Shown here: positions 21,780-59,410 of the stretch, piece by piece
How positions within the stretch are numbered: the first letter of the stretch is position 1
Layout of the letters: each line of letters opens with the position of its first letter
Source of the DNA: Antedon mediterranea
Taxonomy: Eukaryota; Echinodermata; Crinoidea; Comatulida; Antedonidae
Reading direction: 5' to 3'
Length of the DNA: 64,000 nucleotides
Assembly (NCBI RefSeq): GCF_964355755.1
Contig: NC_092679.1
Span: 22,320,432 to 22,384,431 of the forward strand
The notes under the pieces: generated by a model
Told to the model about the DNA's origin: nothing
The model's database searches: none
The model's input: only the letters and a program-made list of their open reading frames with translations
Position numbers and translations under genes: made by a program

Positions 21780-23880
21780 TACAGACATTGAAATAGATAT
21801 TCTTCTTCTTCTTTCCCTTTTCAGGGAATTTATTGGTTCAAAGTATATTGGCCTTTGGCCCTAATACAAACAAATACAAATTAACTATAACTTAAGATAA
21901 TGGTTTCTTCTTTCAAAAGCAAAGTAGACGTATTTTCCTAAATTATAAGTAAAATTTGTGTTGGAAAGTAATAAACAAAGCTTATTAATAGAAGGAAAAA
22001 CACGAATAAATCTTGGAATAAAACTTTTTCTTAAATCATTGTAAAATGTGCATTGCAAAATAAAATGATATTCATCCTCAACAATGTTCTTTTTACATAA
22101 TTTACACGTTCTCTTATATCTTTCTACACCCTCCCATCTGCCCTTTTCAATTTCTAGCTCTAATATCCCTAAACGTAACTTAGTTAATAATCTTCTTTGT
22201 TTAAAATTAATGATGTTGGTCAAGTGATAACTTAAACATATTTCTTTTTTATAAAGAGAAAAGAGCCTTAACTTATTATGTGAACTAAATTTTTGAATGC
22301 ATTTTTGTTTTTCAATATCACATAAGCGCAACTTAAATTCTCTCAAAAATAAACCTTTACTATTAACATATTGTTGTAACCATATATAACCAAAACCAGT
22401 AGAAAAGAGTAAGTGTTTGACCTGTTGTGCCCAACAATTCTCATTACGGTTAACTTTTCTAAGTTGAAACTCATAACACTTAAAAATGAATCTGTCATGA
22501 TCTAAAGTAATAATATGTAACCAAAATCTTATAACTGTAACTAAACAATCCACAGAAAGTGGTAATCTACCTAACTCAGAAGTAACAGCGGCATTTGGTG
22601 CATTTTTTCCAACTTGCAATAAATATCTACAAAATTTAGTATGTGTTTTTTCTATAATGTTTGTGCTATCTGACATTCCCCAGATTTCGCTTCCATACGT
22701 TAAAATAGGAAGTATTTTCACATCAAAAATATTGTTCCATGTATTAATTGGAAGAAAAGATAAGTTACGATAAATGAATGATTTTAAGCAGAATAAACTT
22801 TGATTTGCTTTTTGTTGATTATGTTGCATTGAGTTGTTCCATGCACCATTTGAACTAAAAATAACACCAAGATAATTATACGAATTAACAATTTTTAATT
22901 GAATATTTTTATACTTCCATTTTTCAATGTTCCTTAAATTGCGGCCATTTTTAAAAACCATAATTTTGGATTTTGTAGTGTTTACAGTAAGTTTCCAAGT
23001 ATCACAATAAAGTTCAAGTTTATTTATTAATTTTTGGAGACCTTTCACCGTATCACTAACAAGCACTAAGTCATCTGCATAAAGAAGATGATTCATATGA
23101 CAATCTCCAATTTGAATGAAATCGTTTACCTGATTAAGTATACCACTCAAATCATTAATGTAAATATTAAAGAGTAAAGACGACAACGGAGAACCTTGTT
23201 GTACTCCAATTGAACAATTAAAAGATGGACTAAGTTTGTTGCCAATTTTAACATGAGCAGATAAGTTTTGGTATAAGGAATTTATTATGTGTAACATTCT
23301 GCCTGAAACACCGATACATTTCAACTTATGTAGTAAAAGTGTATGATTTATAGAGTCAAAGGCACGTTTAAGATCAACAAAACAAACAAAAATCCTACCC
23401 CACTTTTTATCTAAGTATTTAGAGATGAGGGTATCTAAAATGAATATATTATCTGTCGTTCTATATCCCTTACGAAAGCCTGCTTGTTCCTCATGAATTA
23501 ACTTTTTACTATTTGTAAATTGTGTTAACCTAGAATTAAGAATATTTAAAAATATTTTTCCTAGGATTGGAATTAAAGAAATACCTCTATAATTTTCAGG
23601 TTTGTTTTTATCTCCATTTTTAAAAATTGGAACGATTAAGCTTGTTGCCCATTGTTTGGGAAATTTTTCAACTAAAAATATGGCGTTAAAAAGAATTTTT
23701 AAAATATCAAAAATAATGTTGGGGGCGTTTAGCAAAAATTCAAAATTCATTCCATCAATGCCGGGAGCTTTTCCACTATTTTGAGAATTAAATGCTTTTT
23801 TTATTTCATCCAACGTTATGTCGTGGTCTAAATTATCATCGTCTTCATTCTGTTGGCATTCTGTGATTTTTGGCAACTCA
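21780..23880 (-). mobile_element. 5'-truncated non-LTR retrotransposon with intact 663-aa RT frame (21885-23876)
   Basis: Domains seen in order: KAPGIDGMNFEFL, ENYRGISLIP, EEQAGFRKGYRTTDNI, FVDLKRAFDSINH (catalytic Asp), GVQQGSPLSSLLFN, LLYADDLVLVS (YADD catalytic box), the K-ILPILTYGSEIW thumb region, and a C-terminal C-x2-C...H...C cluster (CKLCKKN...HFILQC). No endonuclease domain remains, so the copy is truncated at its 5' side near 23880. The 3' UTR ends about 21780-21830 in a (GAA)n tail. No stop interrupts the 663 codons, which suggests a young insertion. Clade not assigned. Confidence 0.9.
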
Positions 23881-24600
23881 TATTGCTATCCCAGAATTCT
23901 ACGTCTACGATAGTGATCGATTGATAAAGCACCTGTGCATCACAAAAGCAAATTTCTGGTTCAAATCTCAATCAATATTGTTTTTTTTTAAATCTGTTTG
24001 AGAATTTTAACTTTTATGAATCCTCCTGTATCTTTATGTTCAATTAAATGCCGTAAAATGTTGTATTTTCTTTTAAGAGGGCCTCTTCAAGTCAGCTGTA
24101 CTGCTGTAATACAGCTGTTAGAGCTACCCTCTTGTAAAACAAAGTTGAATAAATAATCATTTGAGCAACATCGCAAGGTAGTTTTATTATTTCTCAAAAC
24201 ACTTTATTTATACTACGAAATCATGGCGAAGAATGGAGTGTTGAATTAGAATAACATTAATTAGTAAATGAATATAAATATTACACTAATATAGACTGTT
24301 ACTAAATATAAAAATTAATATAAAAATTAAGTACAGCATTTTATGATTCTACTTTTTGGTTTTAGCTACTATAGAAAAATGTTATATATTTAGATTAAAT
24401 AAAAAACTGTATAATTTTAAATATATTTCATTAAAAATCACAAGTACATTCACTTACCGAATTGCACTTTATATAATATATTAAACAATTAAAAATATGT
24501 ACACATTTTATCTACATAAACGATGTATACACGATTATCGATTATAATTGATTATAAAATTACAGATATAAAAGAACAACAACAAACCCTGTATAATTAT
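23881..24600. other. Non-coding AT-rich interval
   Basis: Lies between the LINE and the 20-bp satellite. No gene, RNA or clear repeat was recognised. Confidence 0.4.
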
Positions 24601-44781: not shown

Positions 44782-47700
44782 TCAACCCTTGTTTGCTTCT
44801 ATCTTTTGTCCAGGATCTAGTCCATAGCAAACCCTACCGTCTTGCATAGATGCCCAAGCCATTCTTATAGTTGTAAATGACATTCCAATATCACCTTGGT
44901 TACTGACAACAATTACTCCTCCTGACCCTTGAACTTTTGTGGTCATGTATGATAGTGCTTTTTCAGCTGCATCTTGAGGACTCAAACCTACGGAGTACAA
45001 ATTTAGTATTTTTATAATGTAAAAATAGGATTTAATATTGAGTAGGTCACTCTAGACGGTAATTATAAAAATATTTTGACACACATGGTGTGTCATACTT
45101 ATACTTGAGCTGAAATTCAGGCTTAAACATAATGACAAATCACAGCCATGTTACAAATCCTGGCCATGTGTCAAATCCATGTGCCAAATCCCGGCCATGT
45201 GACAAATCCTGGCCATGTGACAAATCCTGGTCATGTGACAAATCCTGGCCATGTGACAAATCGTAATCATGTGACAAATCCTTACCTTGTTCCATGTGTG
45301 CAATGATAGTTCTACAAAGCGTCACTCGGCTGATAGACTCCCCATGTCCAGTTGATGATACTGCACCAAAGTTATTGTCACAGTATGCCCCACATCCTGA
45401 CAAAAAATAATGTATTCGCATCATTTTTAAATACAGTCAACACTGGCAGAGCATGGGTAAATACTAGTGTACCTGATCTACACTATCAAACTTTAATGTG
45501 ACAAAAAAATGTTATGTGCCCATGAACATGATGATGTCATATCACTACCATACAGTATTTGGGCAAATCACACCTTTTTTGTCAAACTAGTTTGATAGTG
45601 TAGACAGAGCTTTAATAATTGCAATTAAATCATAATTTCTTTTTCAAAAATCTATTAATAATACAGTACCTATCAATGGACTATCTCCAACTCGTCCCAC
45701 TCGCTTTCCCGTGATGCCGCCGGTTGACGTTGCACAAGCAACGTTTCCTGACGCATCAACTGCTACAGCTCCAACAGTGTCATGACATTTCCTAACAAAT
45801 TACCAAAATTAAATTATTTTCCACAATAATTATAAAGTTTGTGGTACACTATGCATTCCTTAAAAGGAAGTAAGAAAAACAAAAAAATATCTCCTAATAT
45901 TCTATAAGTTTCTTTTATCTTACACCTACACACAAAAACCATGATTGGCCATCAAAATGGACAATTATACACTCTACTCTACATACCATTCTCTAAAAAA
46001 GATGTTCCTATTGACTCAGGATATTGTTACAAGGTGTTGTCCCCTAATTAGAGGTTTCACTTACCCTTGTCTAAACTGGTCACTGACTGTTACGCTATAT
46101 TTGTTATATTTCCTTGACATTTCCAGTGATTTTTCACAAACTAGCTCATCTGTGTTCACTTGTTCGATCCCTTGTTCCGTAGCAAATTGATTGGCACCTT
46201 TAGCGGCAAGTAACGTATGATCCGTCTGTAAAAGAAAGCGTGATAAGAAAGTGAGAAACTGGAAAGAGATCATAAAAAAATATCTAGTTTGATAGTGTAG
46301 ACAGAGCTATAACAGGTGTTTATTTGTGTTTCAATAGATAAAGAGCATGTGAACATAGCTTATACCTTTTCCATAACTAATCTTGCTAATGATACTGGGT
46401 TTTTTATGTTTTGTACACACGTCACTGCTCCTGATTGTAGGTTTTTCCCTTCCATAATAATGGCATCCATTTCAACATCACCTTCAATATTCAAAGCAGA
46501 CCCAGTGCCTGTAAAAAAGATTAACACGTTATTTTATGTGTAAAGCTCAAATTTTATGCCTATGTGCCTATATATGGGCATATCACTACCATATTTTGGC
46601 ATATCCCTACCATATTTAGGCACACCACTCTTTTTTGTCAGACTAGTTTGATAGTGTACAGCCAGTATTCAAATTTAAACTGTTGACAGTGTGCCTATAC
46701 TGATATGATATGATATGATAACTTTATTTCGTCCACATAGGAAAATATTTTGAGTGCTTTTCACAAAATTGTACAAAAATATATAAAAACGTTTCATATA
46801 AAAAATAATTAATTACAATATTTAAAAACACTATATATTATTTAACAATGTACAAGTATGAACATAAGAACATATTCTGTAATTGTCTATAGACACATAC
46901 TGTAGAACTAGTCGCATGGATGAAAACATTACATAAGACACAGTCAACTGTACAGATAGATAGTAGTCAACTGTACCAATAGCTAGTAGTCAACTGTACA
47001 GATAGATAGTAGTCAACTGTACAGATAGATAGTAGTCAACTGTACAGATAGATAGGTCAGTCAACTGTACAGATAGATAGGTTAGTCAACTGTACAGATA
47101 GATAGTAGTCAACGGTACAGATAGATAGGTTAGTCAACTGTACAGATAGATAGGTCAGTCAACTGTACAGATAGATAGTAGTCAACGGTACAGATAGATA
47201 GGTTAGTCAACTGTACAGATAGATAGGTCAGTCAACTGTACAGATAGATAGGTTAGTCAACTGTACAGATAGATAGTAGTCAACGGTACAGATAGATAGG
47301 TTAGTCAACTGTACAGATAGATAGATTAGTTGTCAACTGTACAGATAGATAGTTAGTAGTCAACTGCATAGATAGATAGGTTAGTCAACTGTACAGATAT
47401 AGTAGTCAACGATACAGATAGATAGTAGTCAACTGCATAGATAGATAGTAGTCAACGATACAGATAGATAGGTTAGTCAACTGCATAGATAGATAGGTTA
47501 GTCAACTGTACAGATAGATAGTAGTCAACTGTACAGATAGATAGTAGTCAACTGTACAGATAGATAGTAGTCAACGGTACAGATAGATAGGTTAGTCAAC
47601 TGCATAGATAGATAGGTCAGTCAACGGTACAGATAGATAGTAGTCAACTGTACAGATAGATAGTAGTCAACGATACAGATAGATAGTAGTCAACTGCATA

Positions 47701-48895
47701 GATAGATAGTAGTCAACTGTGCAGATTGATAGTAGTCAACTGTACAGATAGATAGGTCAGTCAACTGCATAGATAGATAGGTCAGTCAACTGCATAGATA
47801 GATAGGTCAGTCAACGGTACAGATAGATAGGTCAGTCAACTGTACAGATAGATAGGTTAGTCAACGATACAGATAGATAGGTTAGTCAACGATACAGATA
47901 GATAGGTTAGTCAACGATACAGATAGATAGTAGTCAACTGTACAGATAGATAGTAGTCAACTGTACAGATAGATAGTAGTCAATGGTACAGATAGATAGG
48001 TTAGTCAACTGTACAGATAGATAGATTAGTCGTCAACTGTACAGATAGATAGTTAGTAGTCAACTGTACAGATAGATAGGTTAGTCAACTGTACATGATA
48101 GACAGTAGTCAACTGTACAGATAGATAGTAGTCAACGGTACAGATAGATAGATTAGTCAACTGTACAGATAGATAGTTAGTAGTCAACTGTACAGATAGA
48201 TAGTAGTCAACGGTACAGATAGATAGGTTAGTCAACTGTACAGATAGATAGTAGTCAACTGTACAGATAGATAGTAGTCAACTGTACAGATAGATAGTAG
48301 TCAACTGTACAGATAGATAGATTAGTCGTCAACTGTACAGATAGATAGTTAGTAGTCAACTGTACAGATAGATAGATAGTAGTCAATTGTACAGATAGAA
48401 GTAGTGAACTGTACAGATAGATAGTTAGTAGTCAACTGTACAGATAGATAGTTAGTAGTCAATTGTACAGATAGAAGTAGTCAACTGTACAGATAGATAG
48501 TTAGTAGTCAACTGTACAGATAGATAGTTAGTAGTCAATTGTACAGATAGAAATGAATAAATTACATGTTCAGTTGACTGTTGTTCACAACATAAAGACA
48601 GTTAATTTATGAAAATAAAAAAATAAAGAACCTAAAATTAAACTGTGATTATATACCGTATATTAATTAATTTACCTGCATTGAACGTTGGATCATTTTC
48701 CAAGTAACGGACCGCTTCCTCGACGGCATCAACGGCAGATTCATTGCGACAGAGAACCTCATAACCTTTCTTTACAGCTTCCTGTACTCCATTGACGTAA
48801 GGCTTGCTTACACTATCAGGAATTGTCCATGCTCCTCCATGTACCAATACAGTAGGCTGAATCCGTTTGCATTTCTTTGTACATGTCTCTGTCAT
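44782..48895 (-). CDS. ASRGL1: Isoaspartyl peptidase/L-asparaginase (ASRGL1-like), Ntn hydrolase
   Basis: Type III asparaginase that removes isoaspartyl residues from peptides and hydrolyses asparagine; made as a precursor that self-cleaves before a Thr. Exons: 48676-48895, 46366-46508, 46065-46225, 45670-45791, 45286-45396, 44782-44987; 963 nt, 320 aa. Seen: VLVHGGAW near the N-terminus, [29 protein letters not shown], the autocleavage site [10 protein letters not shown] with nucleophile Thr180, [22 protein letters not shown] and STGHGES. All catalytic-loop motifs are kept, so activity is expected. Length is close to human ASRGL1 (308 aa). The acceptor of the first coding exon (48908) lies 13 nt before the ATG, so a non-coding or separate upstream exon must exist. 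Confidence 0.92.
45148..45282. repeat. 18-bp minisatellite at the 5' splice site of ASRGL1 intron 5
   Basis: Minus-strand unit GATTTGTCACATGGCCAG, about 7 copies, starting at the donor itself (exon 5 ends 45286; intron begins GTAAGGATTTGTCACATG). Confidence 0.75.
45473..45613. mobile_element. MITE-1 copy (ASRGL1 intron 4)
   Basis: CTACACTATCAAACTTTAAT at the left, TTTGATAGTGTAGACAGAGC at the right. Confidence 0.7.
46541..46662. mobile_element. MITE-1 copy (ASRGL1 intron 1)
   Basis: Internal GGGCATATCACTACCATATT modules and right arm AGACTAGTTTGATAGTGTAC; left arm decayed. A separate right-arm scrap lies at 46286-46312. Confidence 0.6.
46880..48550. repeat. Large satellite (TCAACTGTACAGATAGATAG) in ASRGL1 intron 1
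   Basis: About 1.67 kb of 20-27 bp units with the core GTCAACTGTACAGATAGATAG and linkers TAG, GTTA, GTCA or TTAGTAG. Core variants are ACGGTACAG, ACGATACAG and ACTGCATAG. It fills most of the intron; frames through it are repeat artefacts. Confidence 0.9.
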
Positions 48896-48908
48896 ATTGT
48901 GGCTTTAA

Positions 48909-49750
48909 CTGCAACAGTTATTTGTAAACAAAATTAAATAATTTATATAAATTATGCTGAAGCTCATAATACAGTAGTAAGGTGGCAAGCATGTAATAAC
49001 ATAGTTACCAACCAGAGAGATTTGAAATTTGTGACTCAACCATCCATGTATGTAAGGCTACAGCAGATTAATTAGGCACTTTGTTGAACGTATATATCTG
49101 GAGTGTTGATTGCCAATACCAGGTCTTTAAAATTGCAACACGGCTGATTTTCTCCCATAATTTTTGGTTAACACAAGTTTACATGCACATCACACTTCAT
49201 GCCTTGCTATATCTACTGTACTAGAGAGAGCAGCCTGGTCAGATTTGCATGGCCGCTGCACCAATTAAGTTTAATTATGTATTAATAACAGTGAGCTAGT
49301 TCCGCTTCGCACCAGTCTTTTATTTCAACTTCAATATTACTCCATGATACAACTCATGTGCGAAACAGAACCAACTACGCCTAGACCTATCCTATATAGG
49401 CCTAGGCTTATTTATATTAAACATAATATTAAATAATAATTAATATTAATAATGAATAGGCTTGGACTTGCGGAACCTTTTTAATATTATTAATTTAATT
49501 TGAATGCATTTTTTAATTGATTTCTCTTAAAAAATAAATTATTAATTAGTGCTAAAAAATGATCACGCATAATATAGATAGATCATGAATATGTTTGAGT
49601 TTAGGGTAGGCCCTACCGCGTGTATACAAGCCTAGGCCTACTTTACTCTACTCTGTAGTTTCACCGTCAAGTCACACAGCCCGGGGTTTTCCCAACTTAT
49701 GCAGTTCGCTTGGCCTAGCAGCCATATAGGTAGCCTACTTACGTCTGACT
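48909..49750. other. Interval between MTLN-like ORF and ASRGL1 first coding exon
   Basis: AT-rich, with TAGGCCTA patches. Bounded by a consensus donor at 49738 (CAGAC|GTAAGT on the minus strand) and the ASRGL1 acceptor at 48909-48910, so it may be an intron. A minus-strand AATAAA at 49319-49324 would allow an independent MTLN transcript instead. Confidence 0.5.
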
Positions 49751-49933
49751 TTATAGTGAATCAATTTGATTGCTAACGCCTTTAATTTGTTTTGATAATT
49801 CAAATCGCTTGTTTTGTAATCTCTTCTTTCTCCAACTGAATATCTTGTATCCCAATACTGTTCCGACTCCAACTCCAATACTAAAACTTAAAATAACAAC
49901 AATGGACAGCCGTTTACCAGAAACTTCGGCCAT
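49751..49933 (-). CDS. MTLN: Mitoregulin-like micropeptide (60 aa)
   Basis: Single-pass mitochondrial micropeptide; in vertebrates it sits in mitochondrial membranes and supports fatty-acid oxidation and respiratory-complex assembly. The frame starts MAEVSGKRLSIVV, has one hydrophobic helix with small residues (about 9-29), then SWRKKRLQNK and a polar helix ending QIDSL. Human mitoregulin (56 aa) likewise starts MADVS, has one helix and then WRKRRLQDK. The ATG at 49933 has an excellent context (AACATGG). The frame stays open upstream to 49981, but the MAEVS start fits the family. The assignment rests on motif order and matching length in a very short protein. A donor 13 nt after the stop (49739/49738) points to splicing toward ASRGL1. 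Confidence 0.8.
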   Translation of the reverse strand: MAEVSGKRLSIVVILSFSIGVGVGTVLGYKIFSWRKKRLQNKRFELSKQIKGVSNQIDSL

Positions 49934-51114
49934 GTTTCGTGAATTTTGCGAAAGGCCTGGTATGGAACGCCAAAACCGCATTTAGAAAAGTGATAATGAA
50001 TACAAAAGGGGAGTACACTAGATATTTAATGTACTCCCAATGTGCAGTTTCAATAAAGTAAACAACGTTGCTTGTTAACAACATCACCAATCATACTGAT
50101 ACACTGTCGTCGACAACATATATCCAAAAAAATATTAGTCTTATTTGCTTTCACCATTTTTTTTATTCCAATATGCTGGGTTATACAGACCATTGATGCA
50201 TAAATTACTTATACATACATGTGCATTTGTAAAGTTAATTATCTTAGCGAATAGTTATCTAACCTTTTACGGAAAATAGAAGTACATTTTTAGTAAATAC
50301 ATATATTATCATTTTACTCAAAAGCAGAGGAAACAACAATATGTAGCCATGTGCACAAATTATTGTGTTTTTACAATTTCAATGTTATGCAAATGCTCAA
50401 TAAGGTTCGTTTCCTCAGCTTATAAAAAACTTGAAATATTGTGCAGCCTGGAAAGGAATTTATGTTCCTTTTAACTCCTGCGAATTGCAATTTGGCAAAC
50501 TTGACTTTACGGTATATAACAAATTTTCCTCATTTTCAGAAAACCAAATTATCATTCTTTTTAAGGAGAAACATAACAGTTTATAATAGCTAGAGTGAGC
50601 ATGCTCCCTATCTATATTTCGCGTGCCGATTTTCGGGGCCTCAACACAAACTCGTTTAAAAATTAATCTTGTATAATTTTCAACAACTTATTTCTGACAA
50701 GAATATTTTCGATTGTGTATTTTAACAAAGTTTTTTAACACGATGATTTATTATTCACCTTTGACCTTTGTTGCTCACTCTAATACTTTTATTATAATTA
50801 GGCACAAACATAATTATTGAATTCTCAAAACATTTTGAGCTTAATGTAATACTATACAACAATGGCACAGTACCATTGAGACAAAGCTCAATGAGAATGT
50901 ATGCATGCTGCAGAGTACCCTCATAAAATATGTACACTCTCTGTATACAAAACAGTGCCCCCGTGGTATTCTGTCGCATGAGGACGTATTAGGATACCAT
51001 CGTCATGTCAAATCCAGTAATATTTCTGGTAAACATGCGAAATTTGACAGCAGACAGCAAAATATCGTAGAAACGGGCACTAACATGACTGAGACACGTT
51101 GGTGCACGTAGATA

Positions 51115-53622: not shown

Positions 53623-56600
53623 CTACATAGTGGCACCACTATTGCTTTGGATGTCTTGTACTTGACCAATATCAATGCTATTAAACACTGGAATATTCAG
53701 AGAGTCATGAACATCCTCCATGATATAATCATCTCCCACTCTATTCTCATCGACCGCAGGTAGCTGCCTTTCTTGGGACTGCAGGATTTGTTGCTGCAGA
53801 AGAGCAATATCAGCTTCATTCATAAAAGTGGATAGACTTGGAAGGGCATCACTTTCAGCTATGACGTCAACGTCGCCCCCATTCAAAATCTGCTGCATGG
53901 CTGCCTCGATGTCAGAAGCGTTTCCAACAGCCATATTGCTGCTTGGTACTTCCTCAACAACAACATTTTGGTATCCATCCGACATCGGGCCAAGAATATC
54001 AAACACTCCTTTAACTGTATCCATAGGACTTGCAACGGACACTGGGGTTACAAAACTACTGCTAGCGGCTAGATTGTATGGGGAACACATATCCAAATTC
54101 ATAGTAACTCCCGACTCGTCTATCGGATTCGAAGGTTCCCCTCCTAAGTTGAATTGAACATCGGCATCGTCAATTCCCTTGCCGGGCGACTGAAAATTGA
54201 AGATTCCGCTTGAAGAATCAATAGTTGACAACGATCCCTGTTCGATTACTTTGCCTGTGTTACCACTGGCACTGGAGTAAAACTTTTCGGTAGGCAGCAT
54301 GTTCGGAACTGCTTCTGCAGGCGCTTTTCCTTGCGATGACGAAGCTGTAGATCGTCGTGCAACTGTGAAAAAAATAATTTATAATTTACCCAAATTCTTT
54401 TATATTGTATTAAAACATAAACACTCATTTACCAGAGTCAACCCAATAGTATATTCAAAGGGGAATTACTGCTTTAAAATTAAAATTTTGAATATAAAAT
54501 ATAATTGGCGATCACATTAATACTATTTTCCCGATGAGGGCACTGAAGCAGAACAAACGACAATCTCGTACTACAAGAAATCGAAGGCGTGAAGCCGAAA
54601 GCAAAAAGCTAGCAACCACACAGTGAGTTAACTACGCATTGGTTAAGCGAGATACCAACCCGATTTTCGAACACCGTGTTCGAAGGTGGGCAGTACTTCG
54701 CTTAATCGATGCCTATTTTAACCAACTGTGCCAAACTAGCGTTTTGCAATCAACCTACCATGTCTTTTCAATTTTTCTTTCACGTTCATTGTGGCTTTTT
54801 CACGACTTGTTGGTCCAGGTTTTGAAAAACGACAAGATGAAATTTTGAAATTTTCAGCTATTAATAAATAAAAATAAGAAATGCGATAGGTATAAATTTA
54901 ATTCACATTAAAATGGTTTGCCGTGCGCCATGTAATTCCTAAAAAAGGAAGTACGTAAAGTTGAGACTGCCTCATTGTTTTTGCCGTGGTACAAGAACCG
55001 AAACGTCAAACATTATCAACTTTACTTACTTAGTTCAGAGGAATTAAATGCTGTACTTTCCTAGTGTTTATAAGTTCTACAAAACCTGTAAAGCTCTGTC
55101 CACACTATCAAACTTTATGTGACAAAAAGAATGTGATGTGGTCATATATGGACATGATGATGTCATATCACTACCATATTAGGGAATATCACTACCACAT
55201 TTGGGCACATCACACTTTTTTTAACATGCAATTTCACGAAATAGTTTGATAGTGTAGACAGAGCTTAAAACATACCCCTAGCCAAAAAGTTACACATGAC
55301 CTGCAGTGGAATGACCATTATGTATACAAGGCAGAAATAGAGGTCAAAATGTAGCGCCCTCACTTGCCTTTCACAGCTCCATAAGCTTACCATGACTATG
55401 GTGAATCATTGTATTTTCCTATGCCTTACCACGCCCCTTAAGTCTTTGTTTAGGGAAGTATGCAAGTGCCCTAGGACTATATTGTCTAATATTTTAGTGT
55501 GCAAAAACAAACCTAGTACTCTCCGAGTAGTCACGGAGTCACACAATCGTATGGGAACAATAGTAAAATTCTGTCTTGGTAAGACCGAAATGAGGTTTAA
55601 AAATATTCTTATCTAAGGTTATTAATAATATAGCTATAATATAGATATAGCTTTAATTTTTATATTTTACTGTATAAAGAATAGACAAAACAATCTTACC
55701 TTTTGGCTGCATGCCATCTTGATGCATATAGCTCTCATAACAAGGTTGATTCCGTTTTCGCTTCTGACCAATTTTATGAGGATCTAGAAAAAAAAATTTA
55801 ATGAAAGCAAGTTATGTTAAATAATTCATTAACAGATATGATACGTTTGTTATGATGTCTCATAAAACATTCATCAAACATTTATGGACAAAATACTAGT
55901 TCTGTCAACTTTATGCCCTCTTAAGCCCAGTCTACGCTATCAAACTTTATGTGAAACAAAATGTGATGTGCCCATATATGGACATGATGATGTCATATCA
56001 CTACCATATTTGGGTATATCACTACCATTTTCGGACCCATCACACTTTTTTTGTCAAACTAGTTTGATAGTGTAGACAGAGCTTTACTCCTGACAAGACT
56101 GAGGCGTATTGATCAATACGTCGACATAGATTGTCGATGGTATACTAACCTGGTTCTTCTGGGGTGTAAATAAGGTCCATTTCCTGGCTTTCCTCTTTAT
56201 CAGAGGGCCTAATCAACTTGAACCTAACTTTCTTTGGTTGTTGAATGTTCAAGTCCTTGTATGCTGGTATTTTACATACTATCGCTACCTACATGGAGAC
56301 AAAAAAGAAATAATATTAATAATGGATTGAACTTGACTAAGGGTCTGTCTACACTATGGAACTAGTTTGCCAAAAAGTGTGATGTGTCCAAATATGGTAG
56401 TGAAATGCCCAAATATGGTAGTGAAATGACATAGTCATGTCCATATATGGACACATTACAATTTGTTGTCATCTAAAGTATTATAGTGCAAGACAGAGAT
56501 TTATATTCAGGCCTAAACACAACATTTTTAAACAACTACACTAGTTTTCAAGTGTGCGCTAAATAAAACAATTAGCCGACATTTGCCTTGACTAAGAGAG

Positions 56601-59410
56601 CAGTTAATTTTTTACTCAAAATCAACAAACTTCTTTAGGCCAGAAAAAATAAAAATCCACCTACCTGGCGATGAATGTCAGTGGGGCCAAAGTCTCCATA
56701 GTCGATCCAACCTTGGTCGTCCATAAACATCACTTTGATGTCATCTAAATACCAAATAACAAAATTAAAAATGCTACTAGAAAAATTAATTTACACAACA
56801 TAAAAAACAACATTTTTACAATAAATAAAAACCTTTTAATATATAAGAGAAACAAGGAATATTACCTCGCTGAACTTTATCACACAAGATAAATAGTTCT
56901 TCATCACCTCTGACAGAGCAAGTTTTACGATCCACTCGGGCAATTTGCAATGTGGCGCCCTCTGTGGAAAAAAAACCCATTGATTTATGAATATAAACCA
57001 TGATAAGGCATCATATTAACCTAAGCCACAGTTAGTTGTGGCTGCCTTGGATTTGTAGAAAAACTATATGAGAGTTTCCTCAACTGATGATCAATAAAGA
57101 AATACTCACTTTTGTCAAAAACCGGTTGCGTTATGACTGGTTCCAACGGAATATTAGGTTGGTTCGGTGCATCATTATTGGCAATGTAAACTTGAAAACA
57201 AAGGCAGACGACGGTCAGGTCATATTCTGCCACAAGTTTCTTGGCGTCTTTGGTTGTCAGTGTAAAATTATTATAAGGGTCAATACCATTTCTTCCACGC
57301 TCCTCTAAAGCTGTAACAATTTCTTTCTTCTTGATGCACTGGACACCAAGGTTCTCAAACCTAAAAATAAAATTGTTTGAATAATTTTAAGGGTCGCTGA
57401 TAGATAGAATTTTTAGATACTATAGAAAACTTTTGGTTTTGTCTCTGTAGTACTGCATTTAACTCCTTTTTTGAGTTAAATTTGACCTGTGAAAACTGTG
57501 TTAGGGGAGAGATGAATCAACTTGTAGTCTTAAGCTCTGTCCAAACTTTATGTGACAACAAAATGTGATGTGCCCATATATGGACACAGTGTTGTCATAT
57601 CACTACCATATTTGAGCACATCACATTTTTTTTTGTCAAACTAGTTTGATAGTGTAGACAAAGCTTTATACGCTTTAATGGAGTGAACTCCTTATATCTG
57701 ATAGACATTCAACCCAGAATCATGAGAGAGCAACATGTATGAGTTCAAGATTTGTCTGTGCCCTCTTGTTTGTGTTCTTACACTAGCCAAATTTCATTAC
57801 TTCATCCTTAGGATGGGATGTTAAGCGGTTGATTCCATTTACATAAATATTAAGGATAAACAATTATTTTCTAAAAGATTAGGGGGTTGTCTTCCACACT
57901 TGTGGTACTCATGGTAGAGTGCCTGTTGCACTGTTACATTGCAACAGGCTCAAATATGGTAGTGATATGACATCACCATGTCCATTAAAAAAAATCTGAT
58001 TAGGTCATCTACAGTAGATGACCTAATCAGATTTTTTTTCATTTAATTGAGAACCATTAAAGACTGTATAAAGATTTATGTACATAGCTACATAGAAAAA
58101 GAATGGAGTAAATCAATTACTTCTGGGGTTTCTCTCCCTTTGTCCAGCTCTTCTTGCATATCCCATCTTTACAGTCTTTTCCAACGAGGCCGTGTGGATG
58201 TGGCCGAGGCTTGGACTGACCTTTCTCTCTCGTGACACAAGACACAACTACTCTTGCTGGTCCTTTATAATTCTTTATCTGTGAAAGAAAATAGTTTACA
58301 GAAAAGTAGTAAATGTTCAAAATACCGTAAAACTTTTGGGGCACCTCTATTAAGGAACACTTTCATGTCGAACAAACAAGGCAATATGTTTCTAAAATAT
58401 GACCAACCACTATATTAAGAGGACACCTTTGTCCTAAAAGTGTCCCCATAATAGGGGTTCTAATGTAATATAATATACTAGAAATTATCTCTCAATATTC
58501 GCACAAGCTCCGCCACCTTTGTAAATATGCAAATGAATAAATTTAAAATTAAATTATCTTCCATGAAGTCTGTGTAAATTGAGTTATCAAACTTGATGTG
58601 ACAAAAAAATGTGATATGCCCATATATGGACATGATGTCATATCACTACCATATTTGGGCATATCACTACCATATTTGGGCATATCACTACCATATTTGG
58701 GCATATCACACTTTTTCTTTGAACTAGTTTGATAGTGTAGACAGAGCTTCAAAATAATCATATAGTTGGAAGTAAGGAATTTTGTCTTCTTAATTTCGTG
58801 ATGAAAAAAAAATTGTTTAAAGAACTAACCTGAATCGTCGGGTAGGTTTTCTTATCTGATGATGAATTTTCACCAGGAATACTTCCAGCGGACCTTCCTT
58901 CACATTCATAACGGAATCTTAGTTCCTTCTGCTTCGGTTGTTCTACGATTTCGACATAGGGAGTATCTGGTTGAGGCGTACTTAGCCAAGTGTCTGAAAA
59001 TAGATGAAATAATACTATGGTATTTATTGAAATACTGTATTATTTAAACAAATATATGCACTGTATAATGTGGCAAATAATGACCTATTGTTTTAATTTC
59101 AAGTAGGTTTGACTTGCCACACAGGAGTGGAAATGGACACTGCTGGACAATAAAGAGAAACAAAAAACAGTGCTAATGAAAAATACCAATAGAAACCATG
59201 CAGTATTGCATACCTAGAGGGCAGCAAATAGAGTTCCCGCAAGCTAAAGGCCTAGCTAACAAAATTAGCCTAACTACTAGCCTACTACTACCACACTCTC
59301 TAGCTAGAGGCCTAGCCTAGCTAGGCTTGATCAGGACTGTGATCACACCAAGCAATACAGTACTAACCTTTATTAATAAACGTCCTTGATTTAAATTGAG
59401 AAGAACTCAT
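53623..59410 (-). CDS. REL: Class II Rel/NF-kB transcription factor (584 aa)
   Basis: Dimeric transcription factor of innate immune and developmental signalling. Exons: 59368-59410, 58830-58993, 58121-58278, 57110-57360, 56866-56961, 56665-56744, 56150-56288, 55700-55783, 53623-54362; 1755 nt. Rel homology N-domain starts at [20 protein letters not shown]; the DNA-contact loop [17 protein letters not shown] holds R40, R42, Y43, C45, E46. [13 protein letters not shown] and [11 protein letters not shown] follow. The IPT/dimerisation domain has [20 protein letters not shown] and DKVQRGDDIKV. RPSD, the position equivalent to the RelA PKA site, precedes the NLS KRKR (about 318-321). There are no ankyrin repeats; the C-terminal 246-codon exon is acidic and Ser-rich, as in a transactivation domain. 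This makes it RelA/c-Rel/Dorsal type rather than p100/p105. One-to-one orthology is not decided. Confidence 0.93.
54641..54703. repeat. Nested hairpin in Rel intron 8
   Basis: Outer arms TTAAGCGA and TCGCTTAA enclose an inner perfect hairpin CGAACAC-C-GTGTTCG. The TTAA ends hint at a very short MITE. Function unknown. Confidence 0.45.
55089..55267. mobile_element. MITE-1 copy (Rel intron 8)
   Basis: AAAGCTCTGTCCACACTATC at the left, TTTGATAGTGTAGACAGAGC then TTAA at the right. Confidence 0.75.
55921..56085. mobile_element. MITE-1 copy (Rel intron 7)
   Basis: TTAAGCCCAGTCTACGCTAT at the left, TTTGATAGTGTAGACAGAGC at the right. Confidence 0.75.
56341..56505. mobile_element. MITE-1 copy (Rel intron 6)
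   Basis: GTCTGTCTACACTATGGAAC at the left, two AAATATGGTAGTGAAATG modules, decayed right arm. Confidence 0.65.
57530..57668. mobile_element. MITE-1 copy (Rel intron 3)
   Basis: TTAAGCTCTGTCCAAACTTT at the left, TTTGATAGTGTAGACAAAGC then TTTA at the right. A further central fragment (AATATGGTAGTGATATGACA) lies at 57953-57985. Confidence 0.7.
57987..58039. repeat. Perfect 53-bp palindrome in Rel intron 3
   Basis: Two identical 26-nt arms in inverse orientation (arm core ATCTGATTAGGTCATCTAC) around a single A at 58013. It directly follows a MITE-1 central fragment and would form a 26-bp hairpin in the transcript, about 80 nt from the exon 3 donor. Confidence 0.85.
58330..58470. mobile_element. 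MITE-2 copy (Rel intron 2)
   Basis: GGGGCACCTCTATTAAGGAAC at the left region and AAAGTGTCCCCATAATAGGG then GTTCTAATGTAA at the right. Confidence 0.5.
58580..58750. mobile_element. MITE-1 copy with three internal modules (Rel intron 2)
   Basis: The 21-bp module ATATTTGGGCATATCACTACC occurs three times in tandem. Right arm TTTGATAGTGTAGACAGAGC is intact. Confidence 0.75.

Follow-up and report, generated by a model that had tools for sequence, protein, structure and literature searches.

The window analysed in this work, a stretch of 64,000 nucleotides with a GC content of 34.4%, contains a small open reading frame (ORF) on the minus strand at positions 49751-49933, made up of 60 codons and a TAA stop codon (49753-49751). 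This frame is termed mitoregulin-like on the basis of its translation, a Pfam match to the mitoregulin (MTLN) family and a BLASTP comparison with human MTLN, the reference sequence in all the pairwise comparisons presented here. On the same strand lies an ASRGL1/asparaginase-like gene at positions 44782-48895, identified through a match to Pfam Asparaginase_2 (E-value of 8.7e-17 for the frame at 48638-48904) and in part by eye, as is the case of the segment at 44782-45051; its first listed ATG (48895) is located 855 nt downstream of the ORF stop. A gene of the Rel-homology (NF-kB) type was also found on the minus strand at 53623-59039, with a Pfam RHD_DNA_bind match (E-value of 3.1e-20) in the frame at 58758-59039.

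Repeats and other open frames were noted as well, in the window and in other loci. Positions 1-2346 of the window (minus strand) are occupied by a long coding tandem repeat that runs on into locus L011 (8285-10000); its units resemble TVFGAGENTGRMELTSCVGGLLPSQGKTPMVKGRTSLSET, MELT-like motifs are numerous in it, and by eye it has the appearance of a KNL1 kinetochore gene that has expanded. Several reading frames of either strand are open across a tandem array in locus L012 (8658-9998), which contains repeated peptides such as NELVIRLNGLLIRSN and is probably a minisatellite. A 666-codon open frame with reverse-transcriptase features at 21885-23885 (minus strand) of the window was judged by eye to be probably a LINE. 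Finally, a dispersed repeat recurs at positions 55064-55249, 55884-56075 and 58549-58824 of the window, and also in loci L003, L009, L011 and L014; it was recognised by its similar translations and may be a mobile element that carries short tandem units within it.

The first-pass annotation of this DNA had placed a mitoregulin frame at 49751-49933. These coordinates proved to be exact, and the minus strand had been left unstated: reading of the plus strand from 49751 meets 6 stops. Analysis of the frame revealed that the 60 codons are the 3′ part of a 76-codon open frame with a first ATG at 49981 and a second ATG at 49933. The second ATG, with A at −3 and G at +4, lies in a better start context than the first, which has T at −3 and C at +4, and the 16-codon in-frame extension that starts from the weaker ATG (49934-49981, minus strand) has a codon score of −0.31 per codon; this extension is more likely 5′ UTR. 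Since the BLASTP alignment with human MTLN begins at the second ATG, we infer that this is the start codon of the frame. An overlapping frame of 71 codons from a TTG is present on the plus strand at 49770-49985.

The layout previously claimed for the peptide was confirmed in the minus-strand frame, in which a MAEVS start, a hydrophobic stretch, the sequence WRKKRLQNK and a polar tail predicted to be helical were recognised in this order. The best 19-residue window of Kyte-Doolittle hydropathy reached 2.34, starting at residue 9, and hydropathy and a single-sequence structure model place a predicted membrane helix at about residues 9-31 (49841-49909, minus strand). In this model, a single continuous helix covers residues 3-59 (mean pLDDT of 90.0, pTM of 0.49). 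The tail after residue 28 carries a net charge of +7, as compared with +8 in human MTLN. The predicted protein agrees with mitoregulin in size (60 residues vs about 56) and, like it, combines a single hydrophobic helix at the N-terminus with a basic tail at the C-terminus.

A detailed comparison with mitoregulin (MTLN, also LINC00116 or MOXI; Pfam PF22002) showed that both proteins share the MA[D/E]VS start and an ungapped alignment of the first 24 residues, with L9, V13, F17, G20, V21 and G24 in common, as well as the WRK[K/R]RLQ[N/D]K sequence and the basic tail. The WRKKRLQNK motif (49808-49834, minus strand), located through a degenerate DNA pattern search, is the most mitoregulin-like part of this tail. 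On the other hand, the ORF product differs from mitoregulin in a 3-residue gap before the WRK motif, a longer C-terminus and a helix richer in Gly, Ile and Val.

Local alignment of the ORF product with human MTLN resulted in a score of 77, with 19 identical and 32 positive columns (identities included) out of 53. In BLASTP, 18 of 45 residues were identical, with an E-value of 6e-10 for the single comparison; human proteins number about 20,000, and the pairwise E-value rises to near 0.004 when multiplied by this figure and by the 352 ORFs of our control set. This set comprised the ORFs, read from the first ATG to the stop, with 40-150 residues in 144 kb (the window and 80 kb of flanking DNA), and its other 351 members reached at most 36 against human MTLN. 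The score of 77 was not attained in any of 20,000 shuffles of the ORF product in which Met1 stayed in place and each of three further segments retained its composition (maximum of 58), nor in the same number of shuffles with the tail split in two (maximum of 68) or of free shuffles (maximum of 49). When the tail alone was shuffled, 5 of 20,000 sequences reached the observed score, and 2 of 20,000 did so when only the N-terminus and the helix were shuffled, indicating that there is signal in both halves of the peptide. As judged from these sequence comparisons, the similarity to vertebrate mitoregulin is statistically significant, covers almost the full length and goes beyond composition.

The motif WRK[KR]RLQ[ND]K was also searched as degenerate DNA in the genome (354 Mb, 18 contigs), with a single match for the motif and none for a reversed control pattern. 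The window contains this one occurrence, and no occurrence was found in 100 shuffles. The pattern was picked after the sequence was seen and omits some arginine codons, so this search is illustrative.

The mitoregulin family PF22002 was created among 119 microprotein families (PMC11701544). It was the top Pfam match of the ORF, with 21.3 bits and an E-value of 2.5e-4 that becomes about 0.09 when multiplied by the 352 ORFs. This match was nearly full-length (ORF residues 1-58 aligned to positions 1-54 of the 56 in the profile) and fell under the curated cut-off of 27 bits, which is a database convention and not a property of the protein. The human MTLN sequence used here scored 106.8 bits against the same model, which confirms it as mitoregulin. 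A second match corresponded to LapA_dom (PF06305, lipopolysaccharide assembly protein A domain), with 21.1 bits over residues 8-57, under its own cut-off of 28. Human MTLN likewise gives a LapA_dom match (23.6 bits), and we therefore consider the match of the ORF a side effect common to real mitoregulin. In the Pfam scan of segment shuffles, none of 40 matched MTLN or LapA_dom at E-values up to 10, under HMMER's usual filters, which drop most matches above an E-value of 0.1. As regards homology, the pairwise, profile and shuffle tests lend good support to the identification as MTLN made in the first-pass annotation, with the reservation that the top profile match does not reach the Pfam cut-off.

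The near-equality of the two profile scores and the position of the ORF under the MTLN cut-off would also fit convergence, in which the ORF encodes a genuine small membrane protein of unrelated origin, since a hydrophobic helix with a basic one after it is a simple and common design. This explanation is improbable in our view: shuffling within segments, with their composition preserved, reproduces neither the pairwise score nor the Pfam matches, the likeness covers specific residues in the MA-VS start and in W-R-K-x-R-L-Q-x-K, and the LapA_dom side match is shared with human MTLN.

In a six-frame search of the whole genome with the MTLN profile, the ORF was the second of 4 matches at E-values up to 10 (18.4 bits, E-value of 0.73), and this search alone is insufficient to single it out. 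The top match, with 22.7 bits and an E-value of 0.035, was a partial one on contig C7 (L001). It lies in a 43-residue open frame preceded by a stop, without methionine or hydrophobic helix, at a locus whose frames resemble by eye an ADAMTS metalloprotease, and for these reasons it was rejected as MTLN and treated as a chance match. The two remaining matches were found in L003 (minus strand, profile positions 21-41) and in L004 (profile positions 15-44, with one stop inside). When the ORF protein was used as query against its own genome, the only match was the ORF itself. Searches in other collections did not provide relatives: among solved structures, 6 distinct sequences were found up to an E-value of 10 (best, 0.21), none of them informative, and no relatives of the ORF at an E-value of 1e-3 were present among 52 pattern stretches from viral contigs or among 394 from bacterial and archaeal genome contigs.

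Determination of codon usage gave a score of −0.02 bits per codon for the ORF, lower than that of any of the 24 segments assumed to be coding, which scored from 0.02 to 0.31. The 233 control ORFs had a mean of −0.18, with 34 of them scoring at least as high as the ORF, and the overlapping antisense frame had a score of −0.09. Codon usage is indecisive as to the coding status of the ORF, a result compatible with an intergenic frame that is open by chance and corresponds to no gene. Frames of this length are indeed common (352 in 144 kb), and a higher, chance-looking profile match exists elsewhere in the genome, on C7. Against these observations stand the wide separation of the ORF from the other 351 in pairwise score, the occurrence of the motif only once in 354 Mb, and an alignment that extends from the Met to near the end of both proteins, and we regard a chance frame as very improbable.

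Candidate splice signals were scored with a generic weight matrix. A weak candidate acceptor (7.5 bits) was found just 5′ of the start codon at 49956-49958 (minus strand; exon from 49956), and a weak candidate donor, GAC/GTAAGT (7.2 bits), 8 nt past the stop codon at 49741-49743 (minus strand; exon to 49743). The latter ranks 91 of the 3,672 minus-strand GT scanned. This donor, an AG located 13 nt before the ASRGL1 ATG, and the distance of 855 nt between two frames on one strand speak for an alternative in which the frame is no gene of its own and is instead an upstream ORF, within an exon of the 5′ leader, in the message of the ASRGL1-like gene, which would then encode two proteins; this arrangement is compatible with MTLN homology. 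The ASRGL1-side acceptor, however, scores only 1.5 bits (rank 1,306 of 3,288 AG), the donor of the ORF is outscored by two others further downstream (8.8 and 7.6 vs 7.2 bits), and an AATAAA at 49324-49319 would permit a separate transcript. We consider a leader position of the ORF rather unlikely. It is also doubtful that both things hold together, namely that MTLN is as old as the echinoderm-vertebrate ancestor and that it is made here from the ASRGL1 mRNA leader, as the first of two proteins.

The genomic surroundings of the ORF were compared with the vertebrate MTLN locus. In human, BUB1 is located near MTLN, and POLR1B and SLC20A1 are further genes of 2q13-q14; vertebrates possess both BUB1 and BUB1B. 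Two BUB1-family matches were found side by side at one place of the contig that carries the ORF (C10), at about 20.8 Mb from it. The chance of finding BUB1 on the same contig as the ORF is about 7%, as calculated from the size of C10. The POLR1B relative was found on C1 and the SLC20A/PHO4 relatives on C1 and C2, not on C10, so that 1 of the 3 genes found agrees with the vertebrate neighbourhood, a mixed picture. A search of the genome with the ANAPC1 model gave no match, which does not show absence of the gene. In addition, the genome contains a match to the bindin family (107.2 bits) in a frame which we take to be the conserved bindin core, bindin being an echinoderm sperm protein. This match, along with the BUB1-family matches at one place, bears out the earlier suggestion that the host is an invertebrate deuterostome, and we take the animal to be an echinoderm and not a vertebrate. 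The COX1 family had no match in the genome, and neither had the GFP family; the latter result is no proof of absence but, with the GC content of 34.4%, made amphioxus less likely. Mammalian LINC00116 is named together with NPHP1 and MALL in two reports (PMC6458154, PMC7997802). The ORF described here differs in its echinoderm host and in its neighbours, which are ASRGL1-like and Rel-type genes instead of NPHP1 and MALL.

Altogether, the comparisons make it likely that the ORF represents a nuclear gene, present in one copy, for an echinoderm mitoregulin homologue. If the ORF is a true homologue, the gene already existed in the ancestor that echinoderms share with vertebrates, and mitoregulin is probably older than vertebrates. 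To our knowledge, this tiny mitochondrial membrane protein has so far been considered vertebrate-only. Among the open-licence papers listed in our literature searches, none describes, by title and start of abstract, a mitoregulin copy in an invertebrate; in PMC13303939, mitoregulin was met only among the references.

By homology with the mammalian protein, the ORF would be transcribed and translated into a peptide anchored in a mitochondrial membrane through its N-terminal single-pass helix, and the basic helical tail from WRKKRLQNK, which would be exposed, may contact lipid and partner proteins. Mammalian Mtln has been associated with lipid homeostasis and energy metabolism in a review (PMC11920140), and the echinoderm peptide might have the same role. 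The same review summarises split-GFP experiments that place Mtln in the outer membrane with its N-terminus in the intermembrane space, whereas earlier studies had assigned it to the inner membrane (PMC11920140).

If the proposed homology is correct, the echinoderm copy would put the origin of mitoregulin before chordates and would imply either loss or oversight of the gene in other invertebrates. So distant a sequence would show which residues matter, in both halves of the peptide, and the function of mitoregulin would become testable in sea urchins or starfish. Furthermore, the finding would suggest that other micropeptides regarded as vertebrate-specific may simply be too short for standard searches.
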